Positions 4,889 to 17,284 of a stretch of DNA of 64,000 bases are shown here, in pieces; position 1 is the stretch's first letter; the number at the start of each line of letters is the position of its first letter. Source of the stretch: Ichthyobacterium seriolicida. Lineage in GTDB: Bacteria > Bacteroidota > Bacteroidia > Flavobacteriales > Ichthyobacteriaceae. The notes below the pieces were generated by a model. That model had not been told where the DNA came from. It saw only the letters and a list, made by a program, of their open reading frames with translations, and made no database searches. The stretch is from assembly GCF_002369955.1 (NCBI RefSeq), contig NZ_AP014564.1:122893-186892 (forward strand), in the 5' to 3' direction. The position numbers were made by a program, and so were the translations under genes.

Positions 4889-4990
4889 TAATTACTACTA
4901 TCTTAGCTAAGGTGTTCGTTCTCTGTCTTTTAGGGTGGAGAGTAGGATAAGTCTTATAGCTAATACTTTGAATGCTGTGGTATTTAGAGG
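4889..4990 (+). promoter_or_regulatory. Structured 5' leader, copy 1
   Basis: It begins with the conserved block AATTACTACTATCTTAGCT, whose TATCTTAG is one base from the Bacteroidota -7 consensus TAnnTTTG and may be the promoter. Then come hairpin 1 (CTCT 4921-4924 with AGAG 4939-4942, loop containing CTTTTAGGG), a short ATAAGTCTTAT palindrome (4947-4957) and hairpin 3: CTTTGAATGC (4966-4975), loop TGTG, GTATTTAGAG (4980-4989), ten pairs including G-U. The gene starts 37 bases later. The same layout precedes four other genes of the family. Confidence 0.6.
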
Positions 4991-5026
4991 ATCGTTGTTT
5001 TTTTAACCTATTATATTATTAAAATT

Positions 5027-7699
5027 ATGTTTAAGAAAAATTATTTTGTAAAGAGTATTATTTTCTCTTTTGTATTGTTGTCGGCGATTATTTTCTCCTG
5101 TGAAAAGAATAAGGTTTACCAAGATGATTTAGGTGTATGTATAGAATCTTTTTCCTTGCTGGATTCTGAGAATAAAGAAAAAAAATTAGGTTCTGATATA
5201 AAATGTGAAATAGATACTGAAAATTATACTATATCCTTAACAGTTCCTAGTTCAGCAGTGTTAACTGGGTTAAAATTTAATATAACGCCCTGTGAAGGGA
5301 CTACTATATCCCCTGCTAGTGGTGAAGAGGTTGATTTTGAAGAAGTTCAAGAATCTACTGAGAAAAAAACTACTACTGATGAGGTTTCTGAGGAATCTAC
5401 CAAAAAGCCTTCTCCTCAACAACGATATAAAAAGGTATTTACTTTAACAAAGGGAGACAAAAGTCAAGACTATATTGTATATATAACTAAAGCTTTAGCT
5501 AGTGATTGTTATATTAGTAGTTTTAAATTAGAGAAGTCTAAAAATAAAAACAAGATTTTCGCAGATAGGAATAGTGATATTGTTGAATCTACTAATACTG
5601 AGCCTTCTACCATAACATTACACGTATCTGATGCTGCTACTTTAGATAATTTAAATCCTACAATAGTTCATACAGGGGCTAGTATTACTTCGGGAGAACT
5701 AGTTTCTACTACTGAAAACAGTATTACCACAACTGCAGTTAATTACACAGTAACTACAGATGGAAAAACAAAGGTTTATGCAGTAAAATATATCAAAGAC
5801 TTATCTTCTAATAATAGAATTTCTGAATTTAAGTTTAACAAAGATGATAGCAGTAGTCTTAATACGGGTTTAAAATTAACTAGGTCTTCTGCTGGGGCTA
5901 GAGCAGTAGACGTTACAATTAATGATGCTAATGGAACTATAGTAGTAAAGGCATCTACACAAGCAAATATAGATGCTTTAATCCCTACTATAACTAAGCA
6001 TGAAAGAGCTGCTATAAGTCCAGATGTTGCATCTCATGATTATAGCAATTCTAAGGTTTATACTGTAACAGCTCAAGATGGTCAAACAAAACAGTATACA
6101 GTGTCTGTTTCTAAGAACCTTTCTAATGCTAAAGAGATAAGCAGTTTTACGTTTAAACATTCTGTAAATTCTGGAAAGAATTTTGGCAACACTGATTATT
6201 CAGCAGAGAATATGCCTAGCGCTACTGGAGATGATGATGTAAATGTTAGTATTGCAAAAATCCCTCATACTGTTACAGATTTAACAGGCCTAAAGCCTAC
6301 TATAGCTATCAGTGCTAGTGCCACAGCAAATCCAGCAGATGGAGAGGCACAGAATTTCACTCGAGGTACAGCAAAGAGATATGTGGTAACAGCACAAGAC
6401 GGAACTACTAAAAATTACGATATAACTATTCCTGTATTGCAAGCAGTAGCAGAGATTACTTCGTTTAAAATTAAACCCTCAGATCATAGCGGTAACTCAA
6501 AGATTACATCAGAAATAGAATGGACCAAGTCAGATGATGAAAACTATATAATCGTATTAGATGGAGAAGATAATTCTACTGTAAGTCTTAGTCCTGAAAT
6601 AATTTTGTCTGCAGGAGCTACAACAGTAAATCCAGCATCTAAAGCATCTACTACATTTACATATGGTCAGGTGCAAAATTATGTTGTAACAGCTGAGGAT
6701 GGCTCTACCACTAAAACATATCAAGTAACTGTAAAGTCTTCGAATTCTAAGATGAAATCTTTTGGGTTTAAGAATGACGGTGCCAATAGTGGCAAAAAAA
6801 TTGTTAAAGATGTATCAGGCGTTATAAATCATAGTGCTAAAACAGTAACTGTAAAAGTTCCGTATAATACAGATGTTACTGCTTTGACCCCTGAGGTATT
6901 GGGGAATAATGGTTCTACAGTTACTATTAATGGACAGGCGGCTACTACAGCGCAAGATTTTAGTAGTGAAAAAACTTACACTGTTACTGCTCAAGATGGA
7001 ACTACAAGCGATTATACTGTAACTGTATCTAAAGAAGATGCGCCACAGTTGACAGAGTTTAAGATAACAGCTGATGAAAGTAAAGGGATTAAAGATGAGG
7101 TAACTGCTACATTTGACCATCCTACTAGTGATGGAAAGGGTGGGAAGATAAAGTTGAAGTTTGATCATAAAGTTGCTAGCCGTAACGATGAAATTGTTTT
7201 AACGGGATTAAGTTATACTAGCGATCCTGTTGATGGACATACTCTGACTCCTAATACTCCTCTAGGAGATTCAGAAAGTATTGAAGGTAAAAAAATTACT
7301 TTAACAACTACTCTAGGTTCTACCTCAGAATATACTGTAACAGCAGTTAAAGGACCGTTTATTAAGTCGTTTAAGTTTGGAAAAGATACTAGTGGTAATA
7401 GTGATAAAAATCTAGGTTCTGCCGATGTTGACGGGATAATTAATCATGCTGCTGGTACTATAACGTTAGAAGTTCCTAGTGGGGTTACGATGGGTTCAGA
7501 TGGCAATACAGTAACCCTAACTCCTACAATTGAGGTTGGAGGAGATACTGCTGCTGTTGATCCCACTAGTGCGACTGCTCAGACTTTTACTCCTGACGGG
7601 AGTACCGCTATTCAGTACACGGTAACTAATTCTACTGATACATCTTTCACTAAAACATATACTGTAACTGTAACTAAAAAAGCTGCAAGCGCTAAATAA
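5027..7699 (+). CDS. DUF5018-like repeat lipoprotein, 8 modules
   Basis: An 890-residue protein starting MFKKNYFVKSIIFSFVLLS, with the lipobox Cys at residue 25 (IFSC). An N-terminal module (CIESFSLLDSENKEKKLGSD) ends in a Ser/Thr/Glu/Lys/Pro-rich hinge near residues 105-135. Seven more modules follow, starting near FKLEKSKNKNK, ISEFKFNKDD, ISSFTFKHS, ITSFKIKPSDH, MKSFGFKND, LTEFKITADESKG and IKSFKFGKDTSGN. Most end in YTVTAQDG-like strands typical of extracellular beta-sandwich repeats. QDD eight to ten residues after the Cys could be a surface-export signal, but this is inference. It lacks the GHYWVKVVKSS tail of the next genes. Likely role is a surface-exposed or adhesive protein; the ligand is unknown. 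Confidence 0.92.
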   Translation: MFKKNYFVKSIIFSFVLLSAIIFSCEKNKVYQDDLGVCIESFSLLDSENKEKKLGSDIKCEIDTENYTISLTVPSSAVLTGLKFNITPCEGTTISPASGEEVDFEEVQESTEKKTTTDEVSEESTKKPSPQQRYKKVFTLTKGDKSQDYIVYITKALASDCYISSFKLEKSKNKNKIFADRNSDIVESTNTEPSTITLHVSDAATLDNLNPTIVHTGASITSGELVSTTENSITTTAVNYTVTTDGKTKVYAVKYIKDLSSNNRISEFKFNKDDSSSLNTGLKLTRSSAGARAVDVTINDANGTIVVKASTQANIDALIPTITKHERAAISPDVASHDYSNSKVYTVTAQDGQTKQYTVSVSKNLSNAKEISSFTFKHSVNSGKNFGNTDYSAENMPSATGDDDVNVSIAKIPHTVTDLTGLKPTIAISASATANPADGEAQNFTRGTAKRYVVTAQDGTTKNYDITIPVLQAVAEITSFKIKPSDHSGNSKITSEIEWTKSDDENYIIVLDGEDNSTVSLSPEIILSAGATTVNPASKASTTFTYGQVQNYVVTAEDGSTTKTYQVTVKSSNSKMKSFGFKNDGANSGKKIVKDVSGVINHSAKTVTVKVPYNTDVTALTPEVLGNNGSTVTINGQAATTAQDFSSEKTYTVTAQDGTTSDYTVTVSKEDAPQLTEFKITADESKGIKDEVTATFDHPTSDGKGGKIKLKFDHKVASRNDEIVLTGLSYTSDPVDGHTLTPNTPLGDSESIEGKKITLTTTLGSTSEYTVTAVKGPFIKSFKFGKDTSGNSDKNLGSADVDGIINHAAGTITLEVPSGVTMGSDGNTVTLTPTIEVGGDTAAVDPTSATAQTFTPDGSTAIQYTVTNSTDTSFTKTYTVTVTKKAASAK

Positions 7700-7724
7700 T
7701 TTAGAATACACTTTTCAATTCTAG

Positions 7725-7760
7725 ACAGACAGTCAGTTTTACGGCTGTCTGTTTTTGTTT
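7725..7760 (+). terminator. Intrinsic terminator after 5027-7699
   Basis: ACAGACAG (7725-7732) pairs with CTGTCTGT (7745-7752), followed by TTTTGTTTTTT. The same stem sequence, with minor changes, ends three more genes of the family. Confidence 0.85.
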
Positions 7761-17089: not shown

Positions 17090-17123
17090 TAAATAAATTC
17101 CAATTATACTTATTCAACTCTAA

Positions 17124-17160
17124 ACAGGCAGTCAGTTTTACGGCTGTCTGTTTTTGTTTA
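17124..17160 (+). terminator. Intrinsic terminator after 14147-17089
   Basis: ACAGGCAG (17124-17131) pairs with CTGTCTGT (17144-17151), followed by TTTTGTTTA. The loop region CAGTTTTACGG is the same as in the 7725 terminator. Confidence 0.85.
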
Positions 17161-17180
17161 TATAAAAAAAACGGGGATTA

Positions 17181-17284
17181 AATAATTACTACTATCTTAG
17201 CTGGTATATTAAATTCTCTGTTCTTTGGGGTAGAGATTAGGATAAGTCTTATGGCTAATACTTTGAATGCTGTGGCATTTAAAG
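17181..17284 (+). promoter_or_regulatory. Structured 5' leader, copy 5
   Basis: Practically the same as copy 2 (7800-7903), being part of the duplicated block. Hairpin 3 lies at 17261-17284 and the possible -7 box TATCTTAG at 17193-17200. It gives no independent structural evidence. Confidence 0.6.

Follow-up and report, generated by a model that had tools for sequence, protein, structure and literature searches.

Five lipoprotein genes in a 64,000-nucleotide (nt) stretch of the Ichthyobacterium seriolicida genome (hereafter the window) each follow a leader of about 100 nt that belongs to one family, which raises the question of whether this shared sequence acts as DNA, as RNA or as both. The host strain, JBKA-6T, is a fish pathogen and was, at publication, the only described member of its family (PMC5331501). 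The original prediction, made from the window, took the leader for an undescribed three-part structured RNA that coordinates the genes behind it. Our analysis supports a structured cis-acting RNA with two hairpins, H1 and H3, in the predicted 5′ untranslated region (5′UTR), and the opening block is most likely a promoter-like DNA element apart from the RNA fold.

All five leaders are present on the forward strand, and their opening block AATTACTACTATCTTAGCT begins at 4890, 7803, 10910, 14019 and 17184, 1–3 bases off the starts first proposed. Each leader contains a match to a promoter-like core pattern, followed by H1 and H3, as located by folding, and by the open reading frame (ORF) of a lipoprotein of family F1. 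In copy 1, the core ACTACTATCTTAG lies at 4894–4906, H1 at 4918–4943 and a 10-bp H3 (CTTTGAATGC/GTATTTAGAG) at 4966–4989, both hairpins being backed also by the placement tests described below; the gene (5027–7699) encodes DUF5018-type repeats, as indicated by a domain match. Copy 2 comprises the core at 7807–7819, H1 at 7832–7857, H3 at 7880–7903 and the gene at 7940–10795, and copy 5 the core at 17188–17200, H1 at 17213–17238, H3 at 17261–17284 and the gene at 17321–20239. In these two copies an ATG within H3 (7886 and 17267) is in frame with the lipoprotein and would add 18 residues ahead of the signal peptide, though the longer frame from 7886 is not a likely start; the ATG inside H3 of copy 1 is not in frame. 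Copy 4 has its core at 14023–14035, H1 at 14048–14073 and H3, which holds the C14104–G14111 pair, at 14096–14119, ahead of a gene (14147–17089) that also matches DUF5018. Copy 3 belongs to a second leader class, termed B: behind its core (10914–10926), H1 (10938–10963) is rebuilt in the shifted register already noted in the original prediction, and H3 (10979–11008) combines an inner CTTTGA/TCAAAG stem, found at 10986–11000 as predicted, with an outer ACTGAT/ATTGAT stem, followed by the gene at 11036–13927. The other base pairs named at the outset, G7888–C7895 and G4974–U4981, are likewise correct.

The leader is far more widespread in this genome, a single contig of 1,921,407 bases, than the window indicates. 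A search with copy 1 returned 38 matching places, and a scan of the arrays around search matches identified 39 intact leaders that lead to a lipoprotein beginning with M(F)KKNYFVKSIIFSFVLLS or MKTFSxxKSIIFSFVLLS, and one leader cut by an insertion sequence. A covariance model built from 23 class A leaders detected 43 intact copies in the whole genome (E < 3e-4), a count far beyond chance, and all 43 precede such lipoprotein genes or close lipoprotein relatives, four of them more distant. Class A leaders stand ahead of MFKKNYF starts and class B leaders ahead of MKTFS or MKKNYF starts, while three mixed leaders (c914412, c917878 and c926275) join a class A H1 to a class B H3. Elsewhere, the leader is absent from all 60 genomes of the order searched, where only short low-complexity matches occur, and phage sequences contain no match to it. 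The pattern AATTACTACTATCTTAGCT had no match in a genome-contig collection, which perhaps does not include the present genome. The leader matches no Rfam family; only transfer RNAs reach the gathering threshold, with weak chance matches at a relaxed one. A small peptide encoded in the leader was rejected as an explanation, since one-base indels between copies, together with a non-synonymous change, break the frame.

Upstream of the leaders lies the terminator region of the preceding gene, which differs between copies; the conserved part opens around AAATAATT and peaks in ACTA(C/T)TAnnTTAGC, where the two n positions and one C/T account for most of the variation. In Bacteroidetes, the −7 box has its third and fourth positions free, AT-rich sequence is found at −18 and −28 with no clear −33 element, and transcription starts 4–5 nt downstream of the box (PMC6847099). 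The core resembles the Bacteroidetes sigma-A promoter, with its −7 box TAnnTTTG/TAHHTTTG (PMC6847099, PMC9723704), in the spacing of TA, TT and G, in the two free positions, in the AT-rich upstream sequence and in having no evident −33 element, yet it carries A for T at −6 and an extended RCTAC upstream. Strictly, the core box does not conform to TAHHTTTG, as it reads TAnnTTAG, and some F3 and F4 sites (families introduced below) fill a free position with G. Alone, TAnnTTTG shows mild sense-strand enrichment ahead of other window genes (6 versus 1), but the canonical box combined with the RCTAY extension is not enriched genome-wide (16 versus 15 in the control) and was rejected as the relevant element. 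Given this layout, the departure at −6, the lack of enrichment of the extended canonical box and the distribution of the core described next, the opening block most likely represents a distinct promoter-like class. The "three-part" RNA is thus probably wrong in one respect: the first part fits a −7 element, TAnnTTAG, and would lie upstream of the transcript, leaving two hairpins.

The core RCTAYTANNTTAG (RCTAYTAnnTTAG) has 108 matches in the genome, compared with 19 for its reversed pattern, and a stricter form, RCTACTANNTTAGC, has 63 compared with none; in the 60 other genomes of the order, counts of the core patterns stay at the control (chance) level. About 79 of 105 inspected sites (74 assigned automatically and 5 by eye) sit 69–144 nt ahead of genes for surface proteins, which belong to at least five families; many of the remaining sites fall inside ORFs, at about the chance expectation. 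These families are the DUF5018-type F1 lipoproteins, the F2/F6 lipoproteins (MKTNKIFKNILSLLTLGLVVFSC), F3 (collagen and phage-fibre repeats with an S74 chaperone), F4 (DUF285 with DUF5018) and F5 (MKTRYFLKEFFSL). One core that marks some 79 surface-protein genes makes it plausible that the family is coordinated through its leader, as originally proposed. The genome contains two Sigma70_r2 genes, the primary factor and one protein of extracytoplasmic-function (ECF) size; no core match at up to one mismatch was found near the latter, so autoregulation gives no hint of the factor reading the core. An F2 gene with its own leader lies in the window just ahead of copy 1: the core GCTACTAATTTAG (3641–3653), an exact, intergenic RCTAYTANNTTAG match with the ATG 85 nt downstream, is followed by a predicted H3-type hairpin, GTTAATG...CGTTAAC (3668–3701), whose outer stem recurs in paralogous F2 leaders, and by the lipoprotein gene itself (MKTNKVFKNILSLLTLGLVVFSC; 3726–4730), which has no Pfam match and resembles F1 only in its signal peptide. 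F2 leaders are shorter than those of F1 and carry a single H3-type hairpin close to where the transcript is predicted to begin.

Several lines of evidence support the view that H1 and H3 are maintained as RNA structures. In a placement null, the substitutions inferred on the tree were reassigned at random to bases of matching type in their own segment, and in 300 simulations each, the result folded as well as the real sequences in 2 cases for class A H1, 0 for class A H3, 0 for class B H1 and 1 for class B H3. The null assumes equal freedom of all columns in a segment, but the control segments argue against this as the whole cause, since the inter-hairpin segment, the block and the tail showed no such effect; for the class B tail before the ATG, 98.7% of the nulls are in fact more structured than the tail itself. 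Class B F1 leaders share their outer H3 stem with F2 leaders and with two distant leaders, and across these 20 distinct sequences it is 98.3% paired, compared with 76.2 ± 7.4% in the null (0 of 300 simulations). The second pair of this stem is C-G in some sequences and U-A in others, a significant covariation (E = 0.038, 7 pairs tested) in our own re-implementation imitating R-scape, which uses a tree-preserving null. Distant leaders (c1170959, c190456, c270605 and the F2 group) fold into long hairpins that differ in sequence but follow the same arrangement, with z-scores of −4.5 for c1170959, −4.4 to −5.3 for three of the five F2 leaders folded and −2.5 for c190456. In addition, G-U outnumbers A-C in the stems by 44 to 6 in class A H1, where composition accounts for part of the excess (expected ratio 3.6), and by 27 to 1 in the cross-family B-type H3. 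The sense strand folds better than the antisense strand in all 60 distinct, though related, leaders (mean −18.8 versus −8.7 kcal/mol; −15.2 versus −13.3 kcal/mol in other upstream regions). The G-U excess and the strand asymmetry support RNA structure without proving it.

Other results weigh against the RNA or the promoter reading. The compensatory change in the last hairpin is real and is the best single pair in the class A structure (G-C/G-U/A-U/C-G), but it does not reach significance (E = 0.40), so the pair is not proof of RNA by itself; within class A alone, no pair covaries significantly, and the one significant pair lies in the cross-family H3 stem. RNAalifold applied to all copies yields just five weak pairs, none with a double change, and although class A pairing (91.2%) well exceeds that of slid alignments (40–50%), shuffled partners nearly match it (46 of 500). 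The F3 and F4 leaders share the core, yet their structure is weak (mean z −0.6 and −0.3). The core departs from the sigma-A consensus in its A at −6 and has no TTG at −33. All copies come from one genome, and owing to duplication and probable gene conversion, independent events are few.

What, then, would such a leader do? The explanation we favor, to which we give about even chances, is a shared promoter followed by a 5′ hairpin leader that stabilizes or insulates the mRNA, in the manner of the E. coli ompA stabilizer. The ompA 5′UTR reportedly acts as an mRNA stabilizer, in the work of Emory and Belasco from 1990 and of Chen et al. from 1991. Similarly, our leaders measure about 100 nt, have a hairpin predicted near the 5′ end and an open initiation region, and serve surface lipoprotein genes where ompA encodes an outer-membrane protein; in contrast, dozens of genes here share one leader type, the phylum lacks Shine-Dalgarno sequences, and no sequence relation is to be expected. 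With the published spacing of 4–5 nt, the transcript of copy 1 is predicted to start at 4911–4912, upstream of both hairpins, so that H1 would begin at about nt 7, and 37 nt of AU-rich sequence separate H3 from the ATG at 5027. Counted from the start so predicted, the first paired base would fall at a median of nt 4 in F1 and nt 7 in F2 and relatives. The single-stranded segment typical of ompA is also predicted here, the last 25 nt before the ATG being mostly unpaired (probability 0.65 versus 0.36 elsewhere). Bacteroidetes lack Shine-Dalgarno sequences, and their translation drops when bases around the start codon are paired (PMC6847099); in this setting, a hairpin at the 5′ end with an open initiation region behind it would match the layout of an mRNA stabilizer and insulator such as that of ompA.

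Each gene would thus carry a compact 5′ expression cassette, in which the AT-rich upstream stretch and RCTACTAnnTTAGC, a putative −7 box variant, start transcription about 5 nt further on. The transcript would open with a hairpin within some 10 nt of its 5′ end, H1 or, in F2 genes, the H3-type hairpin; F1 leaders would add H3 as a second hairpin, and every leader would end in an open AU-rich stretch of roughly 20–40 nt before the start codon. Acting as sense-strand RNA, the hairpins most likely would shield the 5′ end from decay and leave the initiation region, which has no Shine-Dalgarno sequence, unpaired; many surface lipoproteins would in this way reach a shared, high level of production. 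Whereas the core with its genome-wide distribution, the hairpins and the selection for them rest on computation, the promoter function, start site and stabilizer or insulator role are what we infer from them.

A rival account, which we regard as rather unlikely, is that only a promoter region was duplicated: the genes would have spread together with promoter and leader, and the hairpins would be AT-rich by-products with no RNA role. The paralogy and sharp boundaries of all copies fit this account, as do the absence of significant covariation in class A and the weak RNAalifold result. Against it stand the scarcity of substitutions that would disrupt H1 or H3, seen in both classes and not in control segments, the hairpins rebuilt from other sequence at the same place, and the strong folding bias towards the sense strand. 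An equally tentative proposal is that an RNA-binding protein or small RNA recognizes H1 or H3 in trans and shifts many surface lipoproteins jointly. One H3 stem is common to F1 and F2, whose mature parts have no BLASTP similarity in the one pair compared, and modules are mixed, as in the class A H1/class B H3 leader of c914412 and the F1 gene behind an F2-type leader at c313560; loops, however, are not conserved between classes or families, and the lack of a visible common recognition sequence argues mildly against a trans-acting factor. Family-wide sharing could serve such a factor instead of, or besides, stabilization. In its fullest form, a lineage-specific post-transcriptional regulon in which a dedicated promoter class, a transferable RNA leader and a trans-acting factor set the output of about 80 surface-protein genes, the idea is doubtful; if true, at least five families, including collagen-like fibres, would be involved, and the surface of the pathogen would be controlled as a unit.

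A switch or attenuator is far less probable. Here, TTAGC of the block would pair with GCTAA before H3 (P0) and compete with an extended H3, which in class A precedes a U run; P0 pair cells are indeed 99.1% standard in class A, and several class A copies have extended TAATCC/GGATTA stems. However, P0 would draw on the predicted −7 box, which would not be transcribed, shows no double change and is absent in F2, and we rejected this stem as part of the RNA. An intrinsic terminator or attenuator at H3 was rejected as well, as the stem is AU-rich and the U run displaced (about 18 nt away in class B), while in the true terminators of these genes a T run directly follows a strong hairpin. Least credible is a DNA-level role, with the inverted repeats or core serving recombination or protein binding between gene copies, for although paralogue arrays with common 5′ ends are consistent with recombination, sense stems rich in G-U and poor in A-C, together with poor antisense folding, are not expected from DNA-level selection.

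Dozens of lipoprotein genes with the same promoter-like sequence, and with hairpins kept while their letters changed, suggest that a single control unit governs much of the cell surface. If the stabilizer or insulator explanation is true, a yellowtail pathogen uses one expression cassette for about 80 genes that encode much of its exposed surface, and experiments would gain one point of access to a surface whose paralogues are otherwise unannotated. A promoter class that departs from the published TAnnTTTG consensus would be added as well, together with a structured 5′UTR family in a phylum that has no Shine-Dalgarno sequences. Surface-protein multigene families such as Neisseria opa likewise consist of many paralogues whose 5′ regions are nearly identical and whose bodies vary; the leader here differs in being structured, in serving more than one protein family and in having no evident repeat-based switch. 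Within the same order, Flavobacterium psychrophilum has structured 5′ regulatory RNAs and the Flavo-1 motif, likewise leaders without known ligand (PMC9723704); ours differs in lacking an Rfam match, and that source is not known to report any for repeated lipoprotein families.

Some further features concern individual leaders and the genes behind them. At genome position 806667, an insertion sequence, whose end reads CCTGGATTATTCAT, breaks a leader about 40 nt in, and the leader at 826236 has a matching insertion-sequence end about 30 nt ahead of it. In c923171, an 11-nt tandem duplication, AATTCTCTGTC, is found in the 5′ arm of H1, and either copy can still form the hairpin. Intact leaders at 934546, 938574, 930284, 822501, 497268, 957974 and 917878 precede lipoprotein ORFs broken early by a frameshift or stop; with some breaks near T runs, these are possibly pseudogenes or cases of phase variation. 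At 11015–11035 of the window and in class B leaders, adjoining T and A homopolymers right before the ATG differ in length (about T4–8 and A6–11), a possible slippage site. One lipoprotein joins DUF285, a domain known from Mycoplasma, with DUF5018 and PKD matches. At genome positions 1642100–1661999, an array of long proteins beginning MNR(K/R)IxFYFGFIF lies entirely behind promoter-like cores, and one member of 1245 amino acids contains collagen repeats, phage tail-fibre repeats and an S74 intramolecular chaperone. Finally, a short ORF at 2483–2872 of the window, with a weak IS1595-type transposase match, adjoins a DUF5018 ORF whose part within the window shows no leader.
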